Shown here in pieces: positions 1,216-28,553 of a stretch of 54,377 nt of DNA. The translations under genes were made by a program, and so were the position numbers. This DNA is from a virus. Where the stretch lies: the IMG/VR virus record IMGVR_UViG_3300021170_000026, positions 1-54,377 of that record; one strand, 5' to 3'. Below the pieces are notes generated by a model that was not told the DNA's origin, ran no database searches, and was given only the letters and a program-made list of their open reading frames with translations. Positions within the stretch are counted from its first letter, which is position 1. Each line of letters opens with the position of its first letter.

Positions 1216-1533
1216 ATGGCCAAGATCAAGTACTTCAACGGGACCACGGAACTTCGGGACCCGCACGGCATGGACAATGCCAAGTTCGTCGCCGCCTTCC
1301 CGGGCGTGAAGGGCCTCCGCTACGACGGGTTCCAGATGAAGGTCGGATATCCGGTGACCGGCGGCGCGCTGCTCCCGATCGAGCGGGCCATCGAATACAA
1401 GTCGAACCCCTCCCGGCACGAGTGCGACGCGCGCTGCATCAACGCCACTGGCCGCATCATGCGGTGCGAGTGCTCCTGCGGTGGCAAGAACCATGGCAAG
1501 GGTGCCTTCAACTGCTCTGCGATAGCCGCATGA
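1216..1533 (+). CDS. Phage protein with C-terminal Cys cluster
   Basis: A 105-residue protein; ATG 1216 follows a GGGAGACGGGC ribosome site. The first 65 residues look globular. The C-terminal part has four to five Cys in a compact cluster (HECDARC, then RCECSCGGKNHG), a pattern I associate with small uncharacterised phage and prophage proteins. A bound zinc is likely. Its stop overlaps the next start (ATGA). Function unknown; it begins the second block of early genes after the direct repeats. Confidence 0.6.
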   Translation: MAKIKYFNGTTELRDPHGMDNAKFVAAFPGVKGLRYDGFQMKVGYPVTGGALLPIERAIEYKSNPSRHECDARCINATGRIMRCECSCGGKNHGKGAFNCSAIAA

Positions 1534-1694
1534 GCAAGGAACCCATCGACCTTGGCGCGGCCAAGAAGGAGAGAGAGCGCAAGCATTATGCCGCGCTTAT
1601 TCTCAGGGCCTATGACGATATTGAGCATGCCGACAAACGGGAAGTTCTCGATCGTCAGGCGCAGATGCAAATCAAGGCGCGAGAGCGTCTATGA
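1530..1694 (+). CDS. Small helical hypothetical protein
   Basis: A 54-residue, highly charged, almost entirely helical protein (runs such as KKERERKHYA and REVLDRQAQMQ). Its ATG at 1530 overlaps the preceding stop and its own stop overlaps the ATG at 1691, which supports translational coupling. No domain is recognised. The ATG was chosen for that ATGA coupling; the upstream in-frame extension would read antiparallel to the Cys-cluster gene and lacks a ribosome site. Confidence 0.55.
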   Translation: MSKEPIDLGAAKKERERKHYAALILRAYDDIEHADKREVLDRQAQMQIKARERL

Positions 1695-1891
1695 CCGAGG
1701 ATGACGTGCTGAAGCTCCTCGGTAAGGCTTGTGAGGCTGCCGGAAGCGACCGGCAGTGGGCCATTGCACACGACCTGAGCGCCCAATACGTGGGCGACGT
1801 TCGCCGAAAAAAGCGACCGATTGGACCTTCGATCTTGAAGGCCCTCGGTATCGAGGCAGTGACGACATATCGACGTAGGGGAAAAACATGA
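1691..1891 (+). CDS. Cro/CI-like helix-turn-helix protein
   Basis: A 66-residue single-domain protein. Residues 8-50 fit a Cro/YdaS-type HTH: an initial helix (VLKLLGKACEAAG), helix two (DRQWAIAHD), the turn and recognition helix (LSAQYVGDVRRKK), then RPIGPSILKALGIE. Proteins of this shape are small phage DNA-binding regulators. It is coupled by a 4-bp overlap to the genes on both sides. The 17-bp repeat at 1131-1185 is a natural candidate target but no direct evidence links them. Confidence 0.7.
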   Translation: MTEDDVLKLLGKACEAAGSDRQWAIAHDLSAQYVGDVRRKKRPIGPSILKALGIEAVTTYRRRGKT

Positions 1892-2205
1892 CCGACCCGG
1901 CCATCCTTTTTGTGAAGCCGAAGGCGATCAGCCGCGATGACAAGGCTGCGCTCCAGAAAGCTGGTGTGATCGTTGTCGAGATCGCCGATCCCCACGCGGT
2001 GAACTTTGTTCGCCCCCATGCCGAGCTTTCGAGCGGAACACTTCTGCATTGCGCGGCAGAAGCTATCGACAAACATATTTCGGGACGCGACATCCGCGCG
2101 GATTTTGGGCGTCTTGCTGCTCAAGCTATTCTGACGGCGAAAGCGCATGGGGTGAAGGTTCACCCGCGGGTCGCGAAGATCAAGCAGGAAGGAAAAGTAA
2201 ACTGA
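1888..2205 (+). CDS. Hypothetical protein
   Basis: A 105-residue protein overlapping the HTH gene by 4 bp. An alternating strand/helix pattern (AILFVKPKAIS, then VIVVEIADP, then two helices) suggests a small alpha/beta fold. Phage genomes of Rhizobiales often carry comparable short proteins next to regulators, but I cannot name a family. Good start context comes from the overlap. Function unknown. Confidence 0.55.
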   Translation: MTDPAILFVKPKAISRDDKAALQKAGVIVVEIADPHAVNFVRPHAELSSGTLLHCAAEAIDKHISGRDIRADFGRLAAQAILTAKAHGVKVHPRVAKIKQEGKVN

Positions 2206-2225
2206 CATCACAACGGAGGCCTACA

Positions 2226-2357
2226 ATGAGTTGGCGAAATCCTGACGCTAGGTTCGAGGCAACCGGATGGCCCGCGATCATCATCATCCTAATCTTCAGC
2301 ATCTACTCTTTGGAGGCTGTTCTCCGCACGCTTCTCTGGCTCACTTCTAAGTTTTAG
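2226..2357 (+). CDS. Single-pass membrane peptide
   Basis: A 43-residue protein with ATG 2226 preceded by ACGGAGG at 2212-2218. Residues 14-38 form one long hydrophobic helix (WPAIIIILIFSIYSLEAVL), with short charged ends. It is probably an inner-membrane peptide of unknown role. Confidence 0.5.
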   Translation: MSWRNPDARFEATGWPAIIIILIFSIYSLEAVLRTLLWLTSKF

Positions 2358-11753: not shown

Positions 11754-14700
11754 CTATTGCAGCCACGGGTGCTTGGCCTCGAACCGCTTGTGCGCAGCCG
11801 CGGCGCGGTCGGCCTGGTCATAGTCCGCCCCTCGGAACACGCGCGCCATCGGCACGCGGGCCGGATTGGCGCTCTGGCCCTGTGCCCAACTGTGCCCGGT
11901 ATCGTAAGCCTCCCCGGCGATCCGACGCTGCGCACCGAAAAACTGATCGAACGCCTCGCGGTAGTCCTCCGGGTGCAGATCGAGCAGTCCTGACTTGTGC
12001 CGATTGCCGCCCGAGATGTCGTTGACGAACTCGGCCAGCTTCTTCCAGCCCTCCCCGGTGCGCTCGTAGCCGTTGATCGGCTTGAAGCCGGAGTAGGCGT
12101 TCGGTCCCTTCTGGAAGAAGAAATCCTCGTGCAGCGGGCGGCCGCGCCAATTCTTGTTCTCGTAGATATGCGCCGGCGTGCGCAGCGCCTCCGGGGTGAA
12201 GTAGTCGTAGAGGTTCCCAGTCTCGCCGAGCGGCGAGAATGCCATCGCCACGGACTTGAGCATCGACTCGGCGTGGGCCACGATGCCCTCCTTGCCGAGG
12301 ATCATTCCGATGATGCTGTTGCCGATGTTGAGGGGGAGTGCCCAGTTGTAGGGCATCGGGATCTTGATCGGCTGCATCCTGCCCTTCGCGTCGTGGTCGA
12401 GAGGGTCCATCAGGATGAAGTTGAGCTCGCGCTCCCATGGCGGAATCTTCTCGAACAGCGGCGTGCCGTCCTTGTCGTTGCCGCCGACGAGGTAGTTCCA
12501 CAGGCCGACGGCGATGTTGGCGCCGATGAGGCCAAGGAAAAGGCCGCGCATGATCTTGGAGCGTGCGAGCGCGGCGCCCATCCGGGTGCCGGTGCGGATC
12601 GCGGTGTTGAAGAACGGCATGAACAGGCCGAGGACGTTCGAGAGCAGCCCGCGCAGCTGGTAGTCGATAGTCGCGTCGCGGGCGCGCAGCGCCGCCTTCT
12701 GCGGGGTCATGCCCTGCCGCTTCGCCTGACTGTAGACCGAGAGGCGAAGCGCGTTGTCCCATGCATTGGTGTAGCGGTCGAGCTTCTCGATCCCGCGGTG
12801 CCACCACGCGCGGAATTGCTTATCGGGACGGCCGGAGAGATCGGCGAGCGCCTTGTCGAGGTGCTCACGGAGGAGTTCGAGGTCACGCGACTGACGGAAC
12901 GCGATCGTGCCACCCTCGCGTTTCATCTCGCGATATTCGACGTGCAGCGGGTTGGCGGGATCGAAGCCGCCACGCTCGACCGCCAGGATGGTGCGCACTG
13001 CATTGCCGACGATCGGAAGCGCGTCCTTGATGTATTGGCTCGAGGAGAAATCGCCGCTCTCGCGAAGCTCCTGCGCGTTGAGCAGGCCCTCGATCGGATA
13101 GCGGAACGCGAAGTGGCGCAGCATGAACTCCGGGCTATAGTGGGTCCACAGCGCCTTTAGCTTATTGAGCGCCTTCAGCAGGATCGCCGCATGCCCGAGC
13201 CCGTACGGGTTCATGCGCTTGATCGCCATCGCGAGCTTTTTGTCTTTGAACACCATGTAGCGGCTTTCACCGCCGATCTTGTAGTGCACCGCCTCGTCGC
13301 GATAGCGGTCCGCAAAGTCGGACACCTTCTCCACTAAGCCAGTGTTCGGGTTGACGACCTTCTTCTCCCGGCCCTGATTGAAAGTGACGATGTCTCGCGC
13401 ATCGGCGCCGAGGCTCCGTAGCGCGGCGACCAACGAACGCAGAAAGCGGAGGCGCTCTCCCCGCTCGATGGTGCGGTAGGCTTGGTCGATCAGGTTGACG
13501 AGCGGATTGTCGGCCCTGGAGCGGCGGCCGAACGCCTGCTTGGTCTCGCGGCCGCGCACGTTGAACTGTCCGCCCACACCGTAGTCCTCGGGCGCGTCCG
13601 GCGGAGGAACCTCCCAGCCGCGCAGCGGCGCGTAGTGCTCGTACATCCTGCGCCAGGCGTCGACGGTCGCGCGGGACTCGAGGCCGTAGCGGACCATCTG
13701 GTTGAGGATGTGGTTGCGGATGGCCTCGATGCGCGGCTCGAGGTCGCGGAACGCCTGCCCGTTCGGCCCGTTCTCGTAGCGGTCGATGATCTCGTCCGCT
13801 TCCTGCTTCGACATGCCCGAGCCGCCGACGATGGTGTCGTCATCGGGCGCCTGCCGAAACTGATGGTCGGCAGGGTACATCTCGCCCATTTTCGCGTTCC
13901 GCTCCTCGGCGTGGAGCGCGTAGAGGTACTCGCCCGCCTGATCGAGCGTGATGCCGTTGCCCTTGAGGTAGTCCTTGAGCGGATCGAGGTGGTCCTTGTT
14001 GAACTCGCCCACCTCGTAGCCGACGCGGCCCGGGAACAGGCGCTTGGCCGTGTAGAACTGATGGACGTCCGGAAGGAGCGAGTTGACCGGCTCGCGGCCG
14101 ATCCGCTCGCCGCTGTTCGAGCCTTGTGGAATGACGCCGGCCTGGAAGCGCCGCTCGACCTCGTTTTGCAGCATGCGGACGCGATGCGACAGGTTCGAGA
14201 CGTGCTCGATGAGCCACGTCGCGGTGTCGCCTTCGAGATACTGGCGGATGCGCTGCGGGACAGTGGGTGGAGGCGTCGTCCCTGGATCGTGCGGCTCGGC
14301 CGCCACGATGGGCTCCTCGGGCATGGCGCGAGCGTAATCCTTTGCCCGCATGCCGGGCCGCTTCGCCGCTGCTTCAGCTTGCGCGCGCTGGTGAATCTCC
14401 TCCAGGCGCGAGCCGAAGCCCTGGTCGGCGCGGCTCTGACGCCCCTTCATGCGGCCCTCGTACGCACTCTGGTACACGTCCTCCCAGGTCTGCCAGCCGA
14501 GCCCGTGGAGGAAGTTCTTCAGCCGCTCGAGGAGCTTCCTGATCTTCTCGAAGATCCAGCGGATGCCGACGTGCAGCCCGCTCCCAGCTCCGCTCTCGCC
14601 GGTCGCCCGCCGTGCGCTCCAGGTCTGGTAGGCCATCGCCTCGATCTCGAACTGATCTGTCTTGGGTCCGATCTTGTCGGCGAGGCGCGGGTTGTTCGCG

Positions 14701-17700
14701 ATCGCGTAGGCGCGCAATTCCGGCCCGTACCGCTTGAGCAGCGCCGCCTCCTGGTCGGTGAGCAGGAGGTCTTGGATCGCGTGGAACGTCTCGTGATACG
14801 TCGACTCGAGCAGCCAGCGCGCATTGCTCTGATCGAGCGCGAGGCGGATGATGTTGAGCGTGGTGGTGAAGGTGCCGGAGGCTTGGGCGAAGTCCTTGTC
14901 GTGGCCGTAGACCGCGCCCTTGTCGATCAGGATGCGGAAGGGAAACTCGACGCTCGCCTTGCGGCCGATTTGGTGCTCGATCAGTTGGCGCAGGAATGCC
15001 TCGATGCGGCGCAGCTTCTCGACCGCCGCGGGGTGCAGTCGATTTTTCGGGACCGGAACGTACTTGACGCCCTTCGGCTCCAGCTTGGACTTGGGCTTGT
15101 CGAACACCGGGAAGCCGCGCGACATGATGTGGCCGCGCATCTGCGGGGTGATGTCGATCGAATGGACCCCGAACGGCCCGGCCATCGTCCCGGCCGGCGT
15201 GCCGGTGGTCTCCCAACCAGTGGGATTGTTGGGGTCGCCCACGTCGCTGCGCGGGATGACGGACCGCCCCACCTCGCCGCCGAACGGCTTGACCAGCTTG
15301 CGCGCCAGCGACGGCATGATGCGGTCGTAGAACTCGCGCTGGCCCTCGCCGCCGATGGTGAGGTCGACATCTCCGCGCAGTTTCGTACGGCCATTGATTC
15401 TGGTGGCCTCGGTGATGAGTTTTGCCGCGATCTCCTTTCCGACGATCCCCGCGAGTTCGGCTTGGTCGGCCACGTCTCGCTTAAGGACACTGCGATCATC
15501 GTGGTCCAGCGCCTCAAGCTCGTAGACGTGCCGGCCATCCACCGTATCGACCGGCCGGAGACTCACCTCGTTGACGTAATGCTCTAGGCCGTACCGCTGC
15601 GCCTGCGTCTCGCCGGTGTCCCACGTCAGCCGGTCGTAGCCGTGCTCCGCCGCGTACCTCAAGACACGCTTGAGCGCCAACTCCGGCCAGGTGGTCTTGA
15701 ACGGCGCGTCGGGGACAGCACGATCGCCTAGGCTTTCAAGCCGGCTGATCTCGGCATTGAGTTCGCCACGTTTCTCGTGGAGGCTCTCCAAGAGCGGGCC
15801 AGGGCGCCGCCCTAGAACGCGCGCGTTGATCTGCGCATTGACTGCATGAAGTTCGGTGTAGAGCCCTTTGATCTTTTCGCGCGCGTCGGCCAGCACTTTT
15901 TCGTCGCGGTATCCCCGCTCCCGCCCCTTCTGGTGCCAGTCGCTTTGGAACTCGGCGACATGCAGCACCTTCTCGCCGTTCGGCCCGACACGATCATCGA
16001 ACCGCACATGCGCCAGGACGTTCGGCTCGGACCAGTGGGATTCACGGAAGGCCGGGTCGGGCGGAATATTCAATTCGTCCGCGCGAGCAAGATCAGCGTT
16101 GGACGCTGTGCCGTCGGACTCTCGCTGCATCAACTCTTTGTATTCGGCGTTCGCGGCCTCATGATCTGCCTGCCTTGGCCGAGGCGGCAGCGTCAGCAGC
16201 ACCTCGCGGTAGTTCTCGCCGCCGGGGAGCTTGTACTGGCCGAACTTGGTGCCTGCCCCGCCTTCTTCCTGCCCCAGCGTGCCCTGTAACGAGTGCGCCG
16301 CGCTGTCGAAACTGTGCCAAGTGGACGTGGCGTGGCCGTCGACCACCGGCTCGTAACCAGCGACCTCGCCATTCTCGTCGTGCAAAATGGAAATGTAGGT
16401 GTCGTCAGGCAGTGACGGATGCTTCATCACCGTGAGGGTGGTGCCGTCGCCCTGGTCGACCGTATCGCCCATGCTCCATTCATCGATGTCGGTCGGCAGT
16501 GTGGAGTTGGCGCCCTCGCCGCCCTTCGTGATCTCCTTGATCTCGATGCTGTTGGCGCGGACGTAGTCGAGCATCTCCTGCTTGGTGATCGGCTTGTCGT
16601 GCGAGGCGATCCACTGCGGCAGGCCGAGCCAGTCCATCTCCTCGACCTTAATTCCCGGCCGGTTTCGTAACGTGGCGATCCATTGCTGCGGAGATGCGAC
16701 CTTGGTTTTCTCGCCCGCGATGACGCGCTCGACCTGGGAGTAGAGGCCGGGTGGGAGCGCCTGCCTGGGCGGCGGCTCGTTCTCCCAGTCCGGCATCGCG
16801 ACGGTGGTGCCCTGCGGCGCGCTCTTGCCCTCGGCCGCCTTGGTGCGCGCGTCGAGCTCGTTGATGATCTCCCTCAGGCGGTCGCGCTTCTTCTTCAGTT
16901 CCTCGGCCTGCGCGAACGGCTTCTTCTTGTCCTCCTTCAGGCCGGGGAGATCGCGCTTCGCCTCTTCGACCTTCCAGGCCATCCACGAGCCGTCGTTCTT
17001 GACCTTCTCGTTGACGTCGCCGACGAGGTGATCAAGCGCGGCGCGCGCGCCGGCGGGGGAGAAATCGCCCTTCTCGTCGCGCTCGTGGTTACCCTGCGCG
17101 ACGTCCTTGCCGTCCTTCTTCAGGATCAGCGAGAGCGTCTCGCCGCCCTTGGTGTGTGCCTCTTGGTCGACGTAGAGGTGCAGATCGTAGCCGATCAAGC
17201 TGCCGATCTTTTCCTCGTCGTATTTCTTCATCTCGCTATCGAGACGTCCGCGGATTTTGTTTGCCTTCTCGGCGATCGCCTTGGATGCCTCGGCGCGGGT
17301 GATGACCGTCTTGCCGTCGATGGTCGCCTCGAACGGACGCTCCCAGTCGCCGAGCGATGCCTTGAGCGCGTCCTCGATCGCGGACTTCGAGGTCAGCCGC
17401 TTGCCGTTCACGTTGACGGTGAACTTCGCGTTCTCGTCGCCGGCCTGCTGCTCGGAGATCGAGTTGCGCCACGCCTGCTCAGCCGAGATGCTCGGCGGGT
17501 ACTCCTGGCCGTCGATGGTGACGCGGCGCGCGTCGACCTTGGCCTTCATGGCGGCGACGCCGGCGTCCAATTCGCGGGAGACCTGCTGCACCTCTTTGAT
17601 GCGCCGCGGGTAGTCCTTGATGACCTCTTCGGCGTTGTGGATACGATCATCGAGGCCGAAGTGCTGGCGGCGGTAGGCGCGCTCGAGCAGTTCGAGCTTG

Positions 17701-20700
17701 CCGATCTGCGCCGCGGTCTTGACGCGTTCCAACTGCAACGGGTCGCCCGACGCCAACGCCGCGATCTCGGCCATGTCGACCGAGTCCTCGTCGTCGAAGT
17801 CCATATTGAAGGCACCCTCGTATTTGCGGATGCCGTTAATCATCTTCAGCTTTTGCGAGTTGAGATCCCACATCTTCGCGTCGATGGTGCGCTCAGTCGC
17901 ATAGGCGAGGATTTCGAGCTCGAAATCGTCTCCGTACTTGTCGAGCAGGCTATTGCCCTGCCGGATGCCGCGGCCCTCGCGCTGCTCGATGTCGGAGGGC
18001 TTCCAGGTGACGTCGGCGTGGTGGAGGCCGACGATGCGCTCCTGCACGTTGGTGCCGGCGCCCATGCGCGGGGTCGAGCCGATCAGCACCCGGACCGTGC
18101 CGTCGTTCACGGCGTCGAACAGCGCCTTCTTCTCGGCGTCGTTCTGCGCCTCCTGGACAAAGCGGATTTCGTCTGCGGGGATGCCGCGCGCGATGAGGTT
18201 GCGCTTCAGTTGATCGTAGGCGTTCCAGCCGCCAGCCTGGGCGGCGCGCAGTTCCTCTATTTCCTGGGGGTTGAACCGGTCGAGCGCGTCCTGCACGGTT
18301 TGCAGCGCGTCCTCGTCATTGGCGAGGATCGCCTCCTCGCGCTTCTTCATCAGCGCGTCGTATTCCGCGATGAGCTTGTCGTCGCCCTTCGATTTCGGAA
18401 CAGAGCGGTCGAGGAACACGAGTTGCGTGCCGGCGTCCTTGTCCCAGTGCTTGTAAATGCGCGCGACGTTGTCCGAGATCACGTCGAGCTTGCCGCCCTC
18501 CTCCTTGCTCGGGGAGAACCGTGATGCCGCACGCGCGTCGAGCGAGACCTTGCGGGCGCGGTCCATGAGGCGCAACCGCTCGGCGTTGCGGATGTCAGGG
18601 TCCGGCTCGTTCGGCAGATCATTGAAACCGGCGACGATCTCCTGAAGGATGCGCTCCTGCTCCTTGGTCGGCTTGACCACCACCTCCTTGCGGCCGCCGG
18701 TCTTGACCTTCGGGACCGGGAAACGCTCGCCCTTGTTGTCCTCGGCGTACCACTTGTCGAGATCGCCCTGGGTCACGGCGTCGGTGACGGAATAGTAGAG
18801 TTCCATCAGCGAGCGCATGTTCGACCAGGACCGGCCCAGCCGCGTCACCTCCTTGAGACCGCCCGCCTCGGTCGGCTCGAACTTCGCTTCCGCCGTCACG
18901 TACTGCGAGCGCCAGGCGTCGAAATTCTCCAGGCCGAGTTCGCGCAACTCGTCCGGCGCGAGGTAGCGCAGCATCGTATACATCTCGACGGCGCTGTTCG
19001 AGATCGGCGTGCCGGTGGCGAAGGCGACGGCGCCGTTCGGATTCTCGCGGAGCGTCCTGATCTTAGTGTAGAGATCGAACGCCTTCTTCGATCCCGACTT
19101 GGTGCCCATTCCTCGGACGCCGGTGAGGTTCGAAGAATAGAACAGGTTTTTGAACTCGTGCGCCTCGTCGACCATGAGATAGTCGACGCCCATCTGCTCG
19201 AAGGTGAGCAGGTTGTCCTTCTTGCGGCCCTTGAGCGCATCGATGCGGCCCTGGATCCGGTTCGCGAGCGCCTCGGCCTCCTTCACGCCGAGCGGCTTGC
19301 GACGCCCGCTGTAGCCCTCGGCCGCTGCCGCCTCCTGCGCCTCTTTGATGGCCTCCTGCGCCATGCGGAGTTCCTCGGTGAGGAATCGCAACTCCGTGTC
19401 CGGCGAGATGTTGATGAAGAAGAACGAGGAGTGCGGGACGATCACGGCGTCCCAATCGCCGGTCGCGATCTTGGCGAACAGCTTGCGGCGGTTCGTCCGG
19501 TCGAACTGGTTTGCGCCGGCGGCCAGCACCTTGGCGGCCGGATAGAGCCGATAGAAATCCGACGTCCACTGCGAGACGAGATGGTTCGGCACCACCACCA
19601 TGGGCTTCTTCGAAAGGCCCATGCGGCGGCGTTCCATGATCGTCGCCACACCGGTGAAGGTCTTTCCCGCGCCGACGACGTGGTCGTACAGCACAAACTT
19701 GGATTGGATGCCGCGCCACGCCGCGTTCAGCTGGTTGCGGCGCAATCGGATGACCGCGTCCGGCACCTTCCCGGGGAGACTGAGGTGCTGCCCGTCCCAC
19801 TGGCGGGTGACGCGCGTGTTGAATTTCGTGTTGAAGATGTCGACGAGCTTGTTCCTGCGCTCGGTGTCGCGGAACACCCACTCGGAGAACTCGTTGGAGA
19901 TTTCGTTCGCCTTCAGCTGGGCGAGCGCGGTCAATTCCTGGTCGAGGTATCGCGTGCCATTCTCATCCGGCTCGGTATAAATCTTAATGGCCCGACTATT
20001 GAGCAAGCGACCGAGCAGCCATTGGAACGACGCATCGTCGGTGCGCCACTGCCGCAGCTTCTCGCTGTCACCATGGACGCCGACGTCCACCTCGAAGGCG
20101 TTCGTCAGCTTGTGGTACTTCACCGTGCCCTTGCCGCCGGCGAGGTGCTGGATGAAGTCCTCGTAGACCTTCGGGGGCACCCAGTTCGCACCGATCACCG
20201 CCTGGACCTGCTCGGCGGTCCACCGCTCCGGCTGCACGGCCTTGAGATCGCGGACGTTGTCCTCAAGCCCCGCCGCCTGCGCCGCCTTGAGCTTCTGCAC
20301 CACATGGCCGGTGAGGTAGGCGTCGCGCGGGACGTGCTGCTGTGCCTCCGGGTCGAGATAGACGAGGGGCTTCGGGCCCTCGGTCATCATCTCGATCGCG
20401 CGCTCCTTCGGCACGCCGAGGAGCCCGGCAATGCGGTCCATGTCGATGTGGCCGAAATCCGAGAGCGAAACCTGAAGGGCCTCGGCCGGCGTCTGCACTC
20501 GCTGCACCGGCTCGAATTTCGGCACCACGCGGGTTTTCAGGATCGGCGCCGGCGTGGCGGACGCGGGCTTGGGCTTTTCACCCAGCCGTTTCGCCTTCGC
20601 TTCCGAGACGCCGCGGCGATAGTTGAGTTCGAGCGCCTGGACGAGCGCACCGTCGGGCATCTCGGAGACCAGCGACGAATTGCCCTGGTCGTTGAGCAGG

Positions 20701-23700
20701 CCATGCCGCTTGGTGAAGCCCTCGTAGGCCGCGCGCAGCTTGGCGCGGTTGGCCTCCATGTCCTTGGCCGGCGCGTCCTCGGACTCGAGCACCAGCTGGC
20801 GCTTGGTGAGATCGCGCAGGTCGACGAGCTCGCGCAGCCGCTTGAACTTCGCCACGCCGAGACGCTGGCCCTGCGGCACCTCGTTGTTCTCGAAATAGGT
20901 GCGCTTGTAGATGAGCCGACCCTGGGCGGTCTTGTATTTCTCGTCGGGCTTGGCGGCGGCCGCCTGCTTCTCCGCCTCGGCGGCCTGAAGGCGAAGGTGG
21001 TGGGCATTGCTGACGTTTTGCAGCTTGTCCTCGGCCTCCGCCCTCGCGCGCATCTGCGCCGCGACCTCGCGCAGAGCGACCTGCTTCAGCTGCGGCTCGA
21101 GCGCGTACCAGCGGCCCTCGGCGTCCTGGAAAAGCTGCTTCGACCATGGCGTGGTCGGGCCCAACCCGCGCCGCGCCATCTCGAAGCCGCCGGAGGGCGT
21201 CTCGCGCTCGTAGACCTGGGAGAGCTTGCCGTCCTTGACCTCGATGTGGCCGGGCTCGTGGCCTTCGACCGCGATCTTGAGCGCCTCCGCCATCTTCTCG
21301 TGGCGGGCGATCGAGCGGTCGAGCACCTCCTTGTTGAGGTCGAGCACGTCCTTCGGCAGTCGCGCGATCGCCTCATCGAGCAGCTTGCTGATGTCCGCAC
21401 CCTTTTCCAGGGTGACCGACAACTCGTTCTCCTTGTGCATCCCGCGCACGAACTCGAATTTGCCCAGAACCATGTGCCGGTTCATGGCGAAGTACGAGTT
21501 GATGTGCACGTCCTCGCCGGCAGGGTCCTTGATCGTGCTGGTGTCGATCCAGTCCGGCAACTCCGCGGCGGCGGTTTTCTTCTCGTCGGGGGAGGATTTG
21601 CGGCTGGCGAGCGTGTCGAGGAGTTCGCGGACCTTGCGCTCCTCGGCCGGCGTGTGCCGCTGCATGAACACGATGTCGGTGACGACGTCGGTGCGCGCGT
21701 TCTCGCGGAACGCGGTCTCGGGCAGGCGGATCGCGCCCAAGAGCTTGCCGCGCGCCGCCATTTCTCTGCGCGAGGTGGGGTCCTGCGCGTCCAAGAGATA
21801 GCGCGACACCACGGCGGCGTGGATGCCACCCGGCTGGAGCACGTCGAGGCCGGCGAGGAAAAACTGATTGTGGATCGAGTGCTCGTTGTATTCCGGCTTG
21901 TATTTGAAATGCAGCTTCTCGGAACCAAACGGCGGGTTGCCGATGTTGAGCACCGCCTCGCCGTCGGAGAGCGGGACATATTGCAGGCCGGAGTGCAGGA
22001 TGGTGTCCTGCGGGTAGAGTTGCTGGGCGATGCGCTGGGTGAGGCTGTCGTACTCGACACCGATGAAGCGCGTATTTCCCGCAAGGTGGTCTGGCACGAG
22101 ACCGAGGAAATTGCCGGTCCCGCTCGACAACTCCATCGTGAGACCGCCCCGGAAGCCGAGACGATCGACCGCCTTCCACATGGCGTCGATGACGGCCTTG
22201 GAGGTGTAGTGGGCGTTGCGGGTCGAGCGGCGGGCCGCGTGCATCTCCTCCTTGGTCAGGAGGGAGGCGAGTTCCTCGGCGCGCGCTTTCCACTCCGGCT
22301 TGTCGGAGAAGGCGTTGGCGAGGCCGCCCCAGCCGACGTAGCGGGCGAGCGCGCGCTGTTCATCCGCGGTCGCGCGGCGGCCGTCACGCTCGATCGCCTT
22401 GAGGATGCGGATGGCCGCGAGGTTGTCGTTGAACTTGACGGTCTCGCCGCCCTTGCCGAGCTCGACCTCGTCGGTGATCCGGAAATTGACCTTGGGGAGA
22501 GACGGCGCCTCCTCGGGCGCTACGTCGGCGGGTTCTTCTGGTATTCCCTTTCGGCTTCCGCGAGTTCTTTTCGCTCCCACGCCGGATGACCCGCCCCGGG
22601 CTCGGGGTCGAGCAGGATGTGGTGCTTCAGCGCCACCTCCTCCGCCTCGTGGGCCTGATACCCCTTGTCCCTCATCAGGTGGTCGATTTCCTTCTGCGCC
22701 AGCAGCGCCGCTCCCCGCAGGGCTTCGCTCAGACGGCCCTCCTGCTTCAGGGCGGCCACCTTCTTCGGCAGCCACTGGACCCAGTGCTTCCTCGCCAGGT
22801 GCTCCAGGTTCGCCACGCTCATGGGCGGTCTCCTCGGTGGGAATATGCGCCTGCGGCTGGGACGCCGCAAGGTCGCCCTCGACGTCCTTCATCGCCTCGC
22901 GGATCGCCTGGGCCCGGGACCACCCGCCGCCGCCCGGGATGACGCCGCCCTTCTCAATCCGGACGCCTTTCTCCACGCGGGTGTAGTAGATGCCGCCGCC
23001 GCGTCCCTCGTGGATCTGGTAGTCGACGCCGCCCACCCGCGTCGCGCCGCGCTCGGTCAGTTCGCGCTCGGCGCGCGCCGCCGGGGTTTCCTTGGTGGCC
23101 TTCGGTTCGCGCTCCTTCTCGCGCGCCATGTCGACGAGGTCGGTCTGCTTGCTCTCGTCGCCGAACAGCCCTTCGTCCGCAGGCTTCTGCGCCTTGGTCG
23201 GCTTGAGCTTCTCGTCCGCCTTGCGCTGCGCCTGCTCGCCCTCGGTGATTTTCTCAGCGCCTGGGATGACGGTCTGCTCGCCGGCGGGTGTGGCCTCGGT
23301 GGTCGGCTCGCCTTTCGTCGGCCAATTCGGGATCGGCTTCGGCTTGATGTTGCCGGAGAGGAAGAACTCATTGTCAGGATCGCGGGAGAATTTCGCCACG
23401 CCTGACCCAGCGACGCGACTGCGCTCGGCAAAATGGGTGGTGACGTCGATATAGACCATGTGCCCGTGGTCGCCAGCCTCGTGCACGTACCACTTCGCGA
23501 TCTCGGGCTTGTCCGTGAACCACCGGCCGCGCGCGTTGGTGATGCCTCGCTCGTCCTGCGCCTGCTTGAGCCATTCCGGCAGCGGCTTCGGCTCGCCAGC
23601 GTATTCGCCGCGATAGAGACGGGTGTGGTTCTCGTTCAGTTTTGGCAGCGCGTCGATCGCCGCCTGCTCGGCCTCGGTCAGGCGCTCGTTGGCCGGCTTT

Positions 23701-26700
23701 TCGCCGCCAGTCTCGCCAGCGCCAGGTGCGTGCCCGCCCGCTTGTGGTACTTCGGCCGCTCCTTCGCCGGCGCGCTCTCCGCCTTCTTGCGCAGGTACTT
23801 CGCGAGATCCCGGTGCTGGGTGGGACTGAGGCTCACTGAAAGTCTCCTCCAACTCATCATAGTGCGGTGCGTCGGGCTCGACCATGCCGCTGTTGAGCTC
23901 GTTGGTGACAAGGGCGCGGTCGAGGGCGTCGTCGGGTGAAAGCCCGTGGTCGACCATCAACTGGATCGCGAGGTTGCGATCCTCGTCCAGGATGGTTCCG
24001 AAGCTGTTTTCGGTCAGGAAGTCGTCGAGGCGGTGGCCCGCGTCGCGCTCCGCCATGTAGCGGCTCTCGTCGTCGGCGCGCTCCTGGGCGTGACGATCGC
24101 CGTGCTCCTGGCCGATGGGGAACTGTTTGTTCCCGCGCATCTCCTCGGCGATCATGTCGAGGATGTCTGCCTCCGTCAGGGTGTCCGGCATGCCCTCGGG
24201 CTGGTTCTCGACGTAGCCGGCCTCACGCATCTGCTCGGTGAGTTCGTGGAGGGAGAGGCCGCCCTTGCGCAGCACCGGTCGCGGACCCTGGTTGGGCGCG
24301 ATCGCGCGGGTGCTCTCGTCGAGGCCCATGTGCCGCAGGTCGGGCGTCGGCGCGAGACCGCCGCGGGCCGCGATGAAGGGAAGAAGGGAGACCGGCCCCT
24401 TTATAACGCGGGGAGCGCGGGGACCTTTGGCAGGCCGCCCTTGCCCGGGCTTGGCGGCTTCGGAAACGCCGGCGGGGCGCTCCCCGCTGGAGGCGCCCCG
24501 CTCCCGGTCGGGGGTACCCCGGCCGCCTTCACCCCCGGCACCGCCGGCTTCGCCTGCGGGGTGTCGCTCGTGATCTTGGGCACCTTCACCGGCTTGGGCG
24601 CGTGGAGTTTCGCCACCTTCGCCGCCGCGTGCAGCACCTTCTGGGTGCTGTTGTTCGGTCGGGGCAGCCTCCCCACCAGCTGCGGCGCTTGATGACGGAG
24701 AGCGTACGCCGCGTTCAGATGGCTGCTTGGGTTCCAGTATTGCGTCGGCTTTTGGGCCATAAATTTTCCTCACCTGATCGGGGGGAAGGCCATCACGGAC
24801 CGCGGCGCGGCCGGCGGCGATCTGGATGGCGTCGGGGGCGCTGTGGCCCTCGTCGCGCATGATCTCGGCCGCCTCGGCGATGTGCGCAGGAGGAACGTCA
24901 TTGAGATTGACGCCGGCCCGCTGGTACTCGGCCTCGACGGCGCCGTAGTGCTCCGGCTCGACCCGGCTCTGTTTCTGCCGGTCCGCGAGCACTTGCTCGA
25001 GCGGCTCGACGCCGACGGTGTTGCCAGGCGACTTGGCCGCATCCATCGCCGCGGTCTGCTCGGGCGCGGTCTGCTCGGTGCCCGCCGCGGAGCGTACCTC
25101 GTTCCCGTCCTGGTCGCGCTCGACGACGGTGGCCGGCTTCTCGCCTGCCTCCATTCGCTTCGCGACGTCGTCCTTGGAGAACGGCCCGAGGCCGAGCAAC
25201 TCGTTCTCGCGGCCCTGGTCGGACAGGGTACGGATCTGCCCCGCGTCGACCTGTTTCGGGTCGTAGTGGAACACGCCGCGCGGGGTGTCGACGCGCTGCA
25301 TGCCCTTGGGCAGCGGGAGTTCCCGTGTCCCCTTCGGGAACATCTGGACCGCACGCTCGCCCTTGACCAGCTGCTCCTGCTGGGCGCGCAGCGTCGCGTC
25401 GGTCTCGGGGACGTTCTGGCCGGTGTCGTTTTCCGGCGAAACCTTTTGCCCTTCAGGGGGTTGGGAAGTGCGATGGCCGGCCGGTGCTGACGTTCCGCCG
25501 CCCTCGCTTTCAGGACCGGCCGCTGGCGGAGGCGTCGCGGCCGGTTCTTCTTTGTTTTCAGCGGCTTGGGCGCCCTCGGCGGGGGCCTGCTCGACGGGCT
25601 TTTTGAGGTTCGCCGGGTTCTTCTTCCATTCCTTGAAGTGATCGACCGAAAACGCAGCCAATCCACCGAATTCGCCTTTCGTCTTGCCGGTGGAACCGAG
25701 ATAGGCGGCCAATGCCTCTTCGGGGCTGCGGAACCCGATGAACCCTTTGTGCTGACGAAACAATCCGCTCTCGCGGTCCTTCTCGTCGAGGACAAAGACG
25801 TGCGGGCTGTCGAGGTGCCTCCCGACGAAGTAGTCGAAGTTGTCCCCGTCGTTGCCGAGCGCGTCCTTGTCCTCCCCGTAGGCGGAGGCCATCGTGGATT
25901 CCCCCGGCTCGCCGGTCTCCGGGACGGTCCAGCGCCGGGTGCCGCCCGCGCCGGTCTGGAGCTTGAGCCGGATGCCGTTCCAGGTCGCGTGCGCCTGCTG
26001 GAAGTTCCCGGCCTCGCCCTGCCGGTGGGTGTGGTCCTCGTCGATGATCGAGGTGGCGCGCTCGAGATCCTCCGCGGTGCGCAGTTCGATGGGGTTGTTG
26101 CGGGAACCGTCGCCCTCCGGCTCGATCTCGGCGAGGCGCGCGGCGCGCTGCTTCGGCGACCAGCCCTTGATGACGTCGTCCGAATAGCCGGCCTCGCGCA
26201 GCCGGGCGTTCGCGGCCTCGAAGTCGCCTGCCGGCTGATCTCGCTCCTGACCAGCCTCGGGCGCTTCCTCATAGACGGCGTCAACCGGTTCACCGTTATG
26301 GCGGACCCATTCGTCGCGCTGGCGAATCGTCTCCGCGGTTGCCGGCTTCGGTGGCCCGAACTGCTTGGCCTCTGCCTGCAACTGGGTGCGGGCGCCCGCG
26401 TAGGCGCTTTCCGGAATTTTCGGCTTTTGGCCACTTCGCTTGCGATTCCACTTCTCATACTGCCGCGCGTAGCGAGGGTCGTTCTTGATCGCGTAGTAAT
26501 GGGCGGCAAAATGCGCGATGTCGTCGACCGAGTAGCCGAGGTTCATCCCATAGTCGCGGTGCCAGATCAGCGTCTCGTGCGTTCCGCGCGGCTCGACCGG
26601 CGTGCGGGCGATGCGGTCGAAATTCGGCCGCGCACCCGGCTCCGCCGGGCCAACGACGCCGCGCTCAGCCGCCGCTCGAAACTCCTCGGGCGATAGCCCC

Positions 26701-28553
26701 TCGGGCGGGACTTCGGGGCCGCGTTTCGGCGCTTCCGGTCCAGGCTCCTGGGCGCCCGTACGGGCTTCGCCTGTCGCGGCGCCCGCGCCCGCTGTCTCAG
26801 CACCCCTGGGACCGCCAGTCTCACCAGGACGCGGCCCGCCGGGCGCCGCGGTGCCAAAATCGCTGTAGTCCTGCTCTTGCTGCTGGGACTGCTCCTGCCT
26901 CTGCTTCTCCGTGTCCGGATGCGCCGCCTTGATGGCCGCCTTCAGGTCCGCGTTCGACATCGCGGCGAGGTGCGCGTCGGTGTAGGTCGGGTCGATCGCG
27001 CGGAGCGTGCTCTTGTAGTTGTCGCGGGTGGGCTTGTAGTTCGGGTTGGTCCGCTTGTTCCCCACAAACCGCGGGTCGAACTCGTCAGCGTGCGGCGGTC
27101 CCGGCGGCGGCCGCGGTTCCCGCTCCTCTTCGCCCTGCCGTTCGTCGCCTGGCGGCGGAGGCGGCTCTCCTTCGCGCCGCCGGTTGCGCAGGTCGTCCTC
27201 GGTCTCCAGGCGGACCTCGGGGCGCCGCGGCCGCGTCCCAGCGCCGCCGAACGCGCCCATGGCTGCGCCGGTCAAAAGCGAGGCGATGACGCGGCGGACG
27301 TCGAAATTCTTGGCGTACCCGGCGGCGCCGGTGGAAAACGAGTAGCCGGCGTCCGGGCCGTACGTGGTGGCGAGTTGCTCGGCGAGAAACTCCTGCATTT
27401 CGCCGATGCCGGCGAAGGCCACGCCGGTCTGCGCCGCGTGCGCGAGCCGCTCGACCGCCCACCCGGCGAAGCCCGGCCACGCGGGCAGGAGCTTCTCGAT
27501 CGGCTTGAACACGAGGTGCAGCGGGATCGCCCCGAGCGCCGCGCCGGCGCCACCCATCGCGACGGCTGCTTTCTGCGCCTGCTCGACCGTGGCGCCCTTT
27601 TGGATCGCGGCGTCGAAGGCGTCGCCCGCCGATTGCAGCCCCATCAGGCCCGCGCCAACCGCAGTGCCGACCGCCGGGCCGCCCACCGCAGTGCCCGCCA
27701 CGATGGCGGGCGCCATACCTGCGAGACCACCCAGCCCCTCGGCGACGCGGCCGGTGATGCTCTGCTTCTGCGTCTCGGACATCGGGAAGGCAGCGTCGGC
27801 CTGCTTTTGCAGGTTCTCGCCAGCTTGGTAGATCGCGCCCTTGCGCGGGTCCTCGGCGCCACCGGAGAGCGCCCCGATTCCTTGGGCGGCGAGTGCTGCC
27901 GGACCGACAATAGGAAGGGTGCGCACCAGCGGCGCCACGTCAGCCAACGCCTTGTTGGCGCTCTCGGCGCCCTTGAGCGTGGCGCCGGCCCCATGCGAGA
28001 GACCTGACCCGAGACCAGAGATGGCAGTCTCGGTGTAGCCAGGCCATTCCCGCTGTTCCGGCGTCGCCTGTTGGGTGGGTGGTGGCGTCGTGTAGGACGG
28101 CATGCCCCCGGCCTGGCCGGCGACCTCAAGCGCGGCATCATCCTGCGCCTGGGTTGGCTGGGCCTGCTGGGTCTGTCCCTCGGCTGGCGTCCCGTACTCG
28201 GAGAAATCCGCGCCGCCACCTTGCGGGGCCTGCGCTGCGGGGGTGCCGTACTCGCTGAAGTCCGCCTCACCCTCTTGCGGGGGTGAGGGGTGGGTGGGTT
28301 CGGTCTTTTGGGGGGAGGGTTGGACGGATTGCTGGGGGCCGGGCGCCCCGAAGTCCTGCGGCTCTACGGGCGGCGGGGTCTGCTGCTGCCGCTTGCGCGC
28401 AAGCGCGGTCGCACCGGTTTTTCTGATGAGACGATTGAGAACCGTCTCGGGATTGACAGGGCTGTCGAGGCCGGGATCTCGGTCCCGGATCAGGTTTTCG
28501 ACCACACGCTCGGGTGAGACCCCGATCGTGTCGTCGAAATCATCGTACGCCAT
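11754..28553 (-). CDS. Giant polyvalent protein (methyltransferase-helicase-zincin-LPD38)
   Basis: One uninterrupted 5599-residue frame. In order: Pro/Gln-rich N-terminus with two ADFSEYGTP repeats (98, 116); Gly/Ala-rich hydrophobic stretch (about 175-300); inorganic-pyrophosphatase-like domain (815-955, GDNFDYF at 903-909); ADP-ribosyltransferase-like segment (about 1640-1740, LYRGEY at 1646); adenine methyltransferase with NPPF at 2206; SNF2-type helicase (GAGKT 2961, DEAH 3129, QREGRG 3524); EFQSDWHQ domain (4105-4470, motif at 4201); zincin HETFH at 4587; LPD38-like C-terminus (about 4800-5599) with a membrane-like helix near 5340. Polyvalent proteins of this kind are packaged and injected; P1 DarB has a similar methyltransferase-helicase core. 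Anti-restriction and genome protection are inferred. Three linkers overlap nested ORFs. Confidence 0.93.
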   Translation of the reverse strand: MAYDDFDDTIGVSPERVVENLIRDRDPGLDSPVNPETVLNRLIRKTGATALARKRQQQTPPPVEPQDFGAPGPQQSVQPSPQKTEPTHPSPPQEGEADFSEYGTPAAQAPQGGGADFSEYGTPAEGQTQQAQPTQAQDDAALEVAGQAGGMPSYTTPPPTQQATPEQREWPGYTETAISGLGSGLSHGAGATLKGAESANKALADVAPLVRTLPIVGPAALAAQGIGALSGGAEDPRKGAIYQAGENLQKQADAAFPMSETQKQSITGRVAEGLGGLAGMAPAIVAGTAVGGPAVGTAVGAGLMGLQSAGDAFDAAIQKGATVEQAQKAAVAMGGAGAALGAIPLHLVFKPIEKLLPAWPGFAGWAVERLAHAAQTGVAFAGIGEMQEFLAEQLATTYGPDAGYSFSTGAAGYAKNFDVRRVIASLLTGAAMGAFGGAGTRPRRPEVRLETEDDLRNRRREGEPPPPPGDERQGEEEREPRPPPGPPHADEFDPRFVGNKRTNPNYKPTRDNYKSTLRAIDPTYTDAHLAAMSNADLKAAIKAAHPDTEKQRQEQSQQQEQDYSDFGTAAPGGPRPGETGGPRGAETAGAGAATGEARTGAQEPGPEAPKRGPEVPPEGLSPEEFRAAAERGVVGPAEPGARPNFDRIARTPVEPRGTHETLIWHRDYGMNLGYSVDDIAHFAAHYYAIKNDPRYARQYEKWNRKRSGQKPKIPESAYAGARTQLQAEAKQFGPPKPATAETIRQRDEWVRHNGEPVDAVYEEAPEAGQERDQPAGDFEAANARLREAGYSDDVIKGWSPKQRAARLAEIEPEGDGSRNNPIELRTAEDLERATSIIDEDHTHRQGEAGNFQQAHATWNGIRLKLQTGAGGTRRWTVPETGEPGESTMASAYGEDKDALGNDGDNFDYFVGRHLDSPHVFVLDEKDRESGLFRQHKGFIGFRSPEEALAAYLGSTGKTKGEFGGLAAFSVDHFKEWKKNPANLKKPVEQAPAEGAQAAENKEEPAATPPPAAGPESEGGGTSAPAGHRTSQPPEGQKVSPENDTGQNVPETDATLRAQQEQLVKGERAVQMFPKGTRELPLPKGMQRVDTPRGVFHYDPKQVDAGQIRTLSDQGRENELLGLGPFSKDDVAKRMEAGEKPATVVERDQDGNEVRSAAGTEQTAPEQTAAMDAAKSPGNTVGVEPLEQVLADRQKQSRVEPEHYGAVEAEYQRAGVNLNDVPPAHIAEAAEIMRDEGHSAPDAIQIAAGRAAVRDGLPPDQVRKIYGPKADAILEPKQPSERGVRSPSSSAAAGGEAAPTEQQHPEGAARGGEGGETPRAQAGEGAQDHERHPAGEAGGAGGEGGRGTPDRERGASSGERPAGVSEAAKPGQGRPAKGPRAPRVIKGPVSLLPFIAARGGLAPTPDLRHMGLDESTRAIAPNQGPRPVLRKGGLSLHELTEQMREAGYVENQPEGMPDTLTEADILDMIAEEMRGNKQFPIGQEHGDRHAQERADDESRYMAERDAGHRLDDFLTENSFGTILDEDRNLAIQLMVDHGLSPDDALDRALVTNELNSGMVEPDAPHYDELEETFSEPQSHPAPGSREVPAQEGGERAGEGAAEVPQAGGHAPGAGETGGEKPANERLTEAEQAAIDALPKLNENHTRLYRGEYAGEPKPLPEWLKQAQDERGITNARGRWFTDKPEIAKWYVHEAGDHGHMVYIDVTTHFAERSRVAGSGVAKFSRDPDNEFFLSGNIKPKPIPNWPTKGEPTTEATPAGEQTVIPGAEKITEGEQAQRKADEKLKPTKAQKPADEGLFGDESKQTDLVDMAREKEREPKATKETPAARAERELTERGATRVGGVDYQIHEGRGGGIYYTRVEKGVRIEKGGVIPGGGGWSRAQAIREAMKDVEGDLAASQPQAHIPTEETAHERGEPGAPGEEALGPVAAEEGGRPEAGGPSERSPAGSGAAGAEGNRPPDEGQGVSGPRGGGGGAEAPHPARPRARGGSSGVGAKRTRGSRKGIPEEPADVAPEEAPSLPKVNFRITDEVELGKGGETVKFNDNLAAIRILKAIERDGRRATADEQRALARYVGWGGLANAFSDKPEWKARAEELASLLTKEEMHAARRSTRNAHYTSKAVIDAMWKAVDRLGFRGGLTMELSSGTGNFLGLVPDHLAGNTRFIGVEYDSLTQRIAQQLYPQDTILHSGLQYVPLSDGEAVLNIGNPPFGSEKLHFKYKPEYNEHSIHNQFFLAGLDVLQPGGIHAAVVSRYLLDAQDPTSRREMAARGKLLGAIRLPETAFRENARTDVVTDIVFMQRHTPAEERKVRELLDTLASRKSSPDEKKTAAAELPDWIDTSTIKDPAGEDVHINSYFAMNRHMVLGKFEFVRGMHKENELSVTLEKGADISKLLDEAIARLPKDVLDLNKEVLDRSIARHEKMAEALKIAVEGHEPGHIEVKDGKLSQVYERETPSGGFEMARRGLGPTTPWSKQLFQDAEGRWYALEPQLKQVALREVAAQMRARAEAEDKLQNVSNAHHLRLQAAEAEKQAAAAKPDEKYKTAQGRLIYKRTYFENNEVPQGQRLGVAKFKRLRELVDLRDLTKRQLVLESEDAPAKDMEANRAKLRAAYEGFTKRHGLLNDQGNSSLVSEMPDGALVQALELNYRRGVSEAKAKRLGEKPKPASATPAPILKTRVVPKFEPVQRVQTPAEALQVSLSDFGHIDMDRIAGLLGVPKERAIEMMTEGPKPLVYLDPEAQQHVPRDAYLTGHVVQKLKAAQAAGLEDNVRDLKAVQPERWTAEQVQAVIGANWVPPKVYEDFIQHLAGGKGTVKYHKLTNAFEVDVGVHGDSEKLRQWRTDDASFQWLLGRLLNSRAIKIYTEPDENGTRYLDQELTALAQLKANEISNEFSEWVFRDTERRNKLVDIFNTKFNTRVTRQWDGQHLSLPGKVPDAVIRLRRNQLNAAWRGIQSKFVLYDHVVGAGKTFTGVATIMERRRMGLSKKPMVVVPNHLVSQWTSDFYRLYPAAKVLAAGANQFDRTNRRKLFAKIATGDWDAVIVPHSSFFFINISPDTELRFLTEELRMAQEAIKEAQEAAAAEGYSGRRKPLGVKEAEALANRIQGRIDALKGRKKDNLLTFEQMGVDYLMVDEAHEFKNLFYSSNLTGVRGMGTKSGSKKAFDLYTKIRTLRENPNGAVAFATGTPISNSAVEMYTMLRYLAPDELRELGLENFDAWRSQYVTAEAKFEPTEAGGLKEVTRLGRSWSNMRSLMELYYSVTDAVTQGDLDKWYAEDNKGERFPVPKVKTGGRKEVVVKPTKEQERILQEIVAGFNDLPNEPDPDIRNAERLRLMDRARKVSLDARAASRFSPSKEEGGKLDVISDNVARIYKHWDKDAGTQLVFLDRSVPKSKGDDKLIAEYDALMKKREEAILANDEDALQTVQDALDRFNPQEIEELRAAQAGGWNAYDQLKRNLIARGIPADEIRFVQEAQNDAEKKALFDAVNDGTVRVLIGSTPRMGAGTNVQERIVGLHHADVTWKPSDIEQREGRGIRQGNSLLDKYGDDFELEILAYATERTIDAKMWDLNSQKLKMINGIRKYEGAFNMDFDDEDSVDMAEIAALASGDPLQLERVKTAAQIGKLELLERAYRRQHFGLDDRIHNAEEVIKDYPRRIKEVQQVSRELDAGVAAMKAKVDARRVTIDGQEYPPSISAEQAWRNSISEQQAGDENAKFTVNVNGKRLTSKSAIEDALKASLGDWERPFEATIDGKTVITRAEASKAIAEKANKIRGRLDSEMKKYDEEKIGSLIGYDLHLYVDQEAHTKGGETLSLILKKDGKDVAQGNHERDEKGDFSPAGARAALDHLVGDVNEKVKNDGSWMAWKVEEAKRDLPGLKEDKKKPFAQAEELKKKRDRLREIINELDARTKAAEGKSAPQGTTVAMPDWENEPPPRQALPPGLYSQVERVIAGEKTKVASPQQWIATLRNRPGIKVEEMDWLGLPQWIASHDKPITKQEMLDYVRANSIEIKEITKGGEGANSTLPTDIDEWSMGDTVDQGDGTTLTVMKHPSLPDDTYISILHDENGEVAGYEPVVDGHATSTWHSFDSAAHSLQGTLGQEEGGAGTKFGQYKLPGGENYREVLLTLPPRPRQADHEAANAEYKELMQRESDGTASNADLARADELNIPPDPAFRESHWSEPNVLAHVRFDDRVGPNGEKVLHVAEFQSDWHQKGRERGYRDEKVLADAREKIKGLYTELHAVNAQINARVLGRRPGPLLESLHEKRGELNAEISRLESLGDRAVPDAPFKTTWPELALKRVLRYAAEHGYDRLTWDTGETQAQRYGLEHYVNEVSLRPVDTVDGRHVYELEALDHDDRSVLKRDVADQAELAGIVGKEIAAKLITEATRINGRTKLRGDVDLTIGGEGQREFYDRIMPSLARKLVKPFGGEVGRSVIPRSDVGDPNNPTGWETTGTPAGTMAGPFGVHSIDITPQMRGHIMSRGFPVFDKPKSKLEPKGVKYVPVPKNRLHPAAVEKLRRIEAFLRQLIEHQIGRKASVEFPFRILIDKGAVYGHDKDFAQASGTFTTTLNIIRLALDQSNARWLLESTYHETFHAIQDLLLTDQEAALLKRYGPELRAYAIANNPRLADKIGPKTDQFEIEAMAYQTWSARRATGESGAGSGLHVGIRWIFEKIRKLLERLKNFLHGLGWQTWEDVYQSAYEGRMKGRQSRADQGFGSRLEEIHQRAQAEAAAKRPGMRAKDYARAMPEEPIVAAEPHDPGTTPPPTVPQRIRQYLEGDTATWLIEHVSNLSHRVRMLQNEVERRFQAGVIPQGSNSGERIGREPVNSLLPDVHQFYTAKRLFPGRVGYEVGEFNKDHLDPLKDYLKGNGITLDQAGEYLYALHAEERNAKMGEMYPADHQFRQAPDDDTIVGGSGMSKQEADEIIDRYENGPNGQAFRDLEPRIEAIRNHILNQMVRYGLESRATVDAWRRMYEHYAPLRGWEVPPPDAPEDYGVGGQFNVRGRETKQAFGRRSRADNPLVNLIDQAYRTIERGERLRFLRSLVAALRSLGADARDIVTFNQGREKKVVNPNTGLVEKVSDFADRYRDEAVHYKIGGESRYMVFKDKKLAMAIKRMNPYGLGHAAILLKALNKLKALWTHYSPEFMLRHFAFRYPIEGLLNAQELRESGDFSSSQYIKDALPIVGNAVRTILAVERGGFDPANPLHVEYREMKREGGTIAFRQSRDLELLREHLDKALADLSGRPDKQFRAWWHRGIEKLDRYTNAWDNALRLSVYSQAKRQGMTPQKAALRARDATIDYQLRGLLSNVLGLFMPFFNTAIRTGTRMGAALARSKIMRGLFLGLIGANIAVGLWNYLVGGNDKDGTPLFEKIPPWERELNFILMDPLDHDAKGRMQPIKIPMPYNWALPLNIGNSIIGMILGKEGIVAHAESMLKSVAMAFSPLGETGNLYDYFTPEALRTPAHIYENKNWRGRPLHEDFFFQKGPNAYSGFKPINGYERTGEGWKKLAEFVNDISGGNRHKSGLLDLHPEDYREAFDQFFGAQRRIAGEAYDTGHSWAQGQSANPARVPMARVFRGADYDQADRAAAAHKRFEAKHPWLQ
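22520..22822 (-). CDS. Nested ORF A in the giant gene, +1 frame
   Basis: A 100-residue protein read out of frame inside the giant gene. ATG 22822 has GAGGAG placed 7 bases upstream. Its sequence looks like a true globular helical protein: HLARKHWVQWLPKKVAAL, LSEALRGAALLAQKEIDHLM, then HEAEEVALKHHILLDPEP, resembling small phage proteins with a fLPk...EG.L...l pattern. In the same bases the giant frame encodes only Gly/Pro/Arg-rich linker just before the methyltransferase. That contrast is the main evidence that both frames are translated. Function unknown. Confidence 0.68.
   Translation of the reverse strand: MSVANLEHLARKHWVQWLPKKVAALKQEGRLSEALRGAALLAQKEIDHLMRDKGYQAHEAEEVALKHHILLDPEPGAGHPAWERKELAEAEREYQKNPPT
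23678..23836 (-). CDS. Nested ORF B in the giant gene, +1 frame
   Basis: A 52-residue protein. The GTG start at 23836 has GGAGGAG upstream at good spacing; ATG codons at 23857 and 23860 lack a ribosome site. The sequence (LSPTQHRDLAKYLRKKAE, then KYHKRAGTHLALARLAAK) has the look of a conserved two-helix phage protein. The giant frame over these bases reads only Gly/Glu/Ala linker between two domains. It shares its relative frame with nested ORFs A and C. Function unknown. Confidence 0.62.
   Translation of the reverse strand: MSLSPTQHRDLAKYLRKKAESAPAKERPKYHKRAGTHLALARLAAKSRPTSA
24401..24760 (-). CDS. Nested ORF C in the giant gene, +1 frame
   Basis: A 119-residue protein. ATG 24760 follows GTGAGGAAAATTT, a fair ribosome site. 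The first 55 residues look ordered (KPTQYWNPSSHLNAAYALRHQ, then NSTQKVLHAAAKVAKLH), and the rest is Pro/Lys/Ala-rich and probably disordered. In these bases the giant frame reads Gly/Glu/Arg low complexity immediately before its SLLPFIAARGG domain (residue 1389). Support is somewhat weaker than for A and B because of the biased tail. Confidence 0.52.
   Translation of the reverse strand: MAQKPTQYWNPSSHLNAAYALRHQAPQLVGRLPRPNNSTQKVLHAAAKVAKLHAPKPVKVPKITSDTPQAKPAVPGVKAAGVPPTGSGAPPAGSAPPAFPKPPSPGKGGLPKVPALPAL

Follow-up and report, generated by a model that had tools for sequence, protein, structure and literature searches.

Does the 100-codon open reading frame (ORF) inside the giant gene of this virus encode a protein of its own, or is it a by-product of the codons of the gene around it? 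The window, meaning the whole 54,377-nucleotide stretch analyzed, is a virus record (IMG/VR IMGVR_UViG_3300021170_000026). Its largest gene (11754-28553, minus strand) has 5,599 codons and is predicted to encode a polyvalent, DarB-like methylase/helicase, based on the ORF translation, domain searches, and the annotations of its relatives (DarB-like antirestriction, DNA methylase, or SNF2 helicase). The searches place an inorganic pyrophosphatase (InPase)-like domain (PF18823) at 25623-26024, an SNF2-related helicase domain (PF00176) at 19146-19676, and the LPD38 polyvalent-protein domain (PF18857) at 11850-12455, all on the minus strand. Polyvalent proteins are very long phage proteins that combine numerous unrelated enzyme and LPD-type domains, and the giant satisfies this with InPase, SNF2, and LPD38 domains in a single 5,599 amino acid product. 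With its methylase it belongs among the polyvalent/DarB-like antirestriction proteins of Iyer et al. 2017 (PMC5512222). The nested ORF (22520-22822, minus strand; 100 codons and a TAG stop) is in the giant's +1 frame, and the first 500 giant codons directly 3′ of it (21018-22517, minus strand) are strongly conserved and form an N6-methyltransferase-type domain that opens with the motif LGKGGETVKFNDNLAAIRILK.

The initial annotation had inferred a real nested gene, and not a chance ORF, from the ORF itself, its start signals, and the low complexity of the other frame. These features are present as described: the ATG is preceded at 7 nt by a Shine-Dalgarno sequence, GAGGAG (22830-22835, minus strand), and across the same bases the giant frame yields a low-complexity product rich in Gly, Ala, Pro, Glu, and Arg. 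The argument built on them is insufficient, because +1 ORFs of such length are expected by chance in the giant. In the window giant, 12 +1 ORFs that begin with ATG reach 80 codons or more, and one of these has 562 codons. Synonymous shuffles that keep its protein yield 7.3 (sd 2.0) +1 ORFs with 100 or more amino acids, and 79% of the shuffled versions keep the nested stretch free of stops. The length of the nested ORF alone is no more than chance, and such ORFs are common at this GC content. What lies above chance is the conservation of the encoded protein, the start codon, the Shine-Dalgarno sequence, the frame, and the position.

Profile searches found relatives of the nested protein in 75 viral and 11 bacterial loci, and in the phage loci it is in the +1 frame inside ORFs of thousands of codons. 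A tblastn search of GenBank found relatives in 12 phages (21 records) of Agrobacterium, Sinorhizobium, Ochrobactrum, Klebsiella, Erwinia, Pseudomonas, Vibrio, and Microcystis. The phage records examined have the small protein in the giant's +1 frame, and none of the 12 phages has a separate CDS annotated for it. The GenBank record of Pseudomonas phage Itty13 has long opposite-strand ORFs annotated in the giant's place.

For an unbiased sample we fetched 80 viral loci by the giant's methylase domain only, without reference to the nested frame. The nested family is encoded in 78 of them, in the +1 frame every time, and lies no more than 150 nt upstream of the methylase domain in 76. In the remaining two loci (L177 and L191), the corresponding position holds +1 ORFs of another kind, without a significant profile match. 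Synonymously shuffled giants matched the family profile in 4 of about 400 sequences (around 1%), none in the +2 frame, with a best E of 1.3e-5 compared to 6e-38 for real giants.

The family also occurs as stand-alone bacterial genes with no long ORF around them (L089, L091, L092, L094, and L097), and further stand-alone copies were found in Burkholderiaceae. The initial annotation had proposed a search for homologues outside the overlap as a check, and the nested gene passes it. The methylase module is absent from 9 of the 11 genomes with a stand-alone homologue. Among 398 random Pseudomonadota genomes, only one had the family and that one was the query genome itself; therefore we consider the family to be phage- or island-borne. 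A plasmid search using a stand-alone member gave no match.

In L112, two superfamily members are adjacent stand-alone genes (1492-1716, plus strand, and 1922-2245, minus strand), one of the window type and the other of the type found in Burkholderia phages. In Pseudidiomarina (L097:6962-7747), the homologue is near type I restriction-like genes and is fused to a hydrophobic, membrane-like C-terminal tail. Pfam is silent on this tail, and fusion partners yield no usable hint.

Could the small domain be made without a start of its own? Programmed +1 frameshifting from the giant frame would give an N-terminal part of the giant that ends in the small domain. A product of this shape is encoded in Sinorhizobium phage PBC5: there the giant's upstream part continues directly, without a shift, into the nested frame and terminates at its stop codon. 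Several features of the family make us regard frameshifting as improbable. Of 64 non-redundant cases, 59 start with ATG and 5 with GTG, and a Shine-Dalgarno match of at least 4 precedes 89% of nested starts compared to 33% of the remaining +1 ATGs of those giants (P = 6e-25). Roughly one locus in three has an in-frame stop 1-12 codons upstream of the nested ATG, which leaves almost no room for a shift site. Together, the conserved starts and Shine-Dalgarno sequences and the close upstream stops favor internal initiation. The stand-alone homologues begin at the same Met, no shared slippery sequence was seen in the upstream sequences (inspected by eye, without a formal scan), and the PBC5 case could come from one indel or from an error in sequencing.

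The PBC5 giant (L007:8733-9309) is split: its upstream half enters the nested frame and stops at the nested stop, and from 8733 onward the giant frame is open as the downstream half. A natural fusion would explain this, and so would one indel or an error in sequencing.

Conservation of the protein could in principle follow from selection that acts on the giant frame, with the ORF itself due to chance and to the codon bias of a GC-rich gene. The number of long +1 ORFs expected in the giant and the occasional profile match in shuffled giants are compatible with this reading. The pattern of change by codon position is not. In a +1 nesting, nested position 2 is the giant's wobble site and nested position 3 is giant position 1. 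For 14 pairs picked from different groups (some within one clade), divergence at giant wobble sites is 0.060 in the first 75 nested codons and 0.24-0.36 in the flanks, and the ratio of giant position 3 to position 1 changes is 0.41 in the overlap compared to 1.7-4.1 in the flanks. The giant's wobble sites are thus frozen while its first positions vary. In 99 of 101 pairs, conservation is higher for the nested protein than for the giant residues, although these pairs overlap in membership and are not independent, and a sliding scan located the flip in codon positions at the nested gene in most pairs tested. Conservation tracks the nested frame and not only the giant frame, as the initial annotation's suggested comparison of change in the two frames would have it for a real gene. 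With homologues that lack any giant frame, and with 78 matches in 80 real giants compared to 4 in about 400 shuffled ones, we reject the chance reading, which is contradicted by both the codon-position tests and the shuffles and to which we assign next to no weight.

The codon-position results argue that both frames are coding and that the nested frame dominates within the overlap. The sequence-based criteria for an overlapping gene are satisfied: homologues exist, some without the partner frame; the initiation signals (ATG or GTG and Shine-Dalgarno) are its own and are conserved; and the nested frame shows selection over and above what acts on the partner frame. Coding by both frames is supported by the wobble excess of the giant's flanks and by giant domains in frame on either side. 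One stretch of DNA is, as inferred from these comparisons, encoding two proteins under selection.

We conclude, at a probability of roughly 0.88 and without expression data, that the nested ORF is a genuine gene for a small TnpV-like protein, translated from its own start on the giant's mRNA, with a linker of the giant read through the same bases. The homology, the fixed frame and position, the conservation of start and Shine-Dalgarno sequence, and the selection in the nested frame have been established by computation; translation is inferred. Ribosomes would start internally at the nested Shine-Dalgarno sequence and ATG and produce an all-helical protein of about 11 kDa. Other ribosomes would read the giant frame over the same bases into a low-complexity linker that may tolerate almost any residue. 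The linker is directly before the N6-methyltransferase/SNF2-helicase module. The initial annotation's verdict of a real gene is upheld, on comparative evidence that it did not have.

AlphaFold2, run with 67 family members, gave a confident five-helix model (mean pLDDT 87). Sequence and fold searches of the PDB found no solved structure that resembles the model. The sole match in a viral fold library is Q8W6J4, which we take to be the PBC5 protein carrying the nested-family domain. Nearly invariant residues are H13, W14, P19, L25, G29, A38, L49, G54, E59, A60, and E74.

The window protein has no Pfam match, and searches of Pfam, NCBIfam, and PADLOC with this protein or its family gave only chance-level matches, with the exception of TnpV (PF14198). 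The TnpV model is matched by 22 of the 67 members at E ≤ 1 (best 5.9e-6), five times more matches than the next Pfam family has, and a profile-profile comparison (hhalign) against nine TnpV sequences gave an E of 8.6e-5 and a probability of 60%. The best family member scores 26.7 bits and does not reach the curated Pfam cut-off of 27 bits. Given the sub-cut-off score and the hhalign probability of only 60%, a distant relationship to TnpV is probable on sequence grounds and is not proven. We name the window protein TnpV-like, not TnpV, since it falls below the threshold. Both it and the TnpV of Tn4451 and Tn6104 are small helical proteins of mobile elements with distant similarity in the core, but neither the N-terminal part of TnpV nor its insert before the last helix is present in the window protein.

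All 67 members also match PHROG 938, a family labelled endolysin, of which the last 102 positions are the nested family. We rejected endolysin as an identity: the window protein is a 100 amino acid helical protein that matches only the C-terminal tail of the profile, and there is no Pfam lysis domain. Apparently the match comes from a fused PBC5-type sequence that seeded the family, and the label probably does not describe the small domain.

The classical TnpV of Tn4451-type elements is stand-alone, as are those of phiNJ3 and Pusillibacter, and they differ in this from the nested window gene. Elsewhere genuine TnpV genes are nested. Genuine TnpV (E 2e-21 to 5e-42) occupies the +1 frame inside a methylase/SNF2 frame in a Virgibacillus plasmid (L205) and in three gut contigs (L200, L202, and L206), and the same was found by alignment in L211. 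These genes share both frame and neighborhood with the nested phage family. L207 and L210 also have TnpV in +1 within a long open frame, of unchecked domain content. The record of L210, a Cohnella plasmid, has TnpV annotated and the long frame unlisted (its gene table is known to be incomplete). These plasmid and gut elements have a different N-terminal part from that of the viral giants. In Streptococcus suis, integrative and mobilizable elements (IMEs) that carry tnpV insert into snf2 genes (PMC9815147); this association is distinct from nesting and should not be confused with it. The corresponding position in Burkholderia Lessievirus phages is occupied by a +1 ORF that has a strong Shine-Dalgarno sequence (AAGGAGGTTGCTCAAAATG) and looks similar to TnpV, although Pfam does not confirm a TnpV identity. 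The codon test on four of these phages points the same way in protein conservation, with a weak wobble-site signal.

A TnpV-like gene in the +1 frame of the linker before methylase-SNF2 might be one ancient dual-coding cassette, common to phages of Pseudomonadota and cyanobacteria and to mobile elements from Bacillota and from the human gut. The small protein would then be co-translated with the giant antirestriction machinery and serve as its obligate partner. We regard this as a real possibility at somewhat under even odds. The constant neighborhood suggests that the small protein may be an accessory factor of the adjoining methylase-helicase module; this is the least certain step of our proposal, an inference that we make only tentatively, with a little less conviction than the shared cassette. 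The stand-alone copies, 9 of 11 of which are in genomes that lack the module, speak against strict dependence on it and argue that the small protein can also act alone.

Those copies also fit a reading in which the nested gene is real and translated but has a function unrelated to the giant, as a free-standing accessory protein of mobile elements (such as an excision or regulatory factor) that hitch-hikes in a tolerant linker. Several of the stand-alone homologues are beside terminase-like or restriction-modification genes, and the TnpV of Tn4451 was postulated to act in excision by its likeness to lambda Xis (PMC3158075). An excision role fits poorly with phages such as Klebsiella phage LASTA, and hitch-hiking does not readily account for a placement beside the methylase domain kept in 78 of 80 viral giants, or for the same placement in plasmid and gut elements whose N-terminal part differs. 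We give an unrelated function about the same standing as the shared cassette, a serious contender short of an even chance.

The term overprinted, used for the nested ORF by the initial annotation, holds for the overlap and probably not for the direction it implies. Homologues of the small protein exist where there is no overlap. The small gene is therefore more likely the older of the two, with the giant's linker added over it later, as far as sequence comparison can indicate. Overlapping genes of viruses and bacteria (reviewed in PMC8227390) may likewise be same-strand and +1, with one frame structured and conserved and the other of low complexity; their nested frame is usually young and lineage-restricted, unlike the pair described here, where relatives of the nested protein occur without the overlap and the two frames are found together across widely differing hosts. 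P1 DarB has neither the linker nor the nested ORF, and no nested homologue was found in P1 darB. TnpV, an overlap, or an alternative frame were not found in the text of Iyer et al. 2017 (PMC5512222), and the nested gene is outside its description. We found no report of it in full-text literature on the overlap, the nested gene, TnpV, DarB, or polyvalent proteins, although subscription papers were outside the search and an earlier mention cannot be excluded.

Other regions of these giants deserve mention. The 562-codon ATG ORF of the window (24770-26458, minus strand) is in the giant's +1 frame and is long even for this GC content. Rhizobial giants (L042:7312 onward and related) have an extra domain (EGPFGPILRGYEGKWREAALELERRQSGDAI...) between the nested gene and the methylase domain. 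In the rhizobial giants L043 (13600-13830), L040, and L045, a second +1 region, about 2,160-2,230 codons after the nested start, is depleted in giant-wobble change and encodes a small conserved protein (FDTLQKWKDWQASVSQWSARDPERQAYLKQARQIIREKS). Relatives of this protein are under the giants of Agrobacterium phage Atu_ph08 and PBC5, with a weak match in Ruegeria phage 45A6. This region is likely another nested gene, as judged from its sequence.

The giant is among the largest phage genes. Annotation pipelines suppress same-strand overlaps, and a conserved protein in nearly all such giants has been missed; where TnpV is annotated, the surrounding giant can be missing, as in the Cohnella plasmid. 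This is a rare prokaryotic overlap with statistics beyond reasonable doubt, in which stand-alone homologues give the direction of overprinting. To our knowledge, the TnpV family has long been without a proven function, and the overlap provides a new context for it. For DarB-like polyvalent proteins, the nested gene provides a candidate partner that can be tested. If the ancient cassette is real, a large part of natural TnpV would be a hidden overlapping gene.
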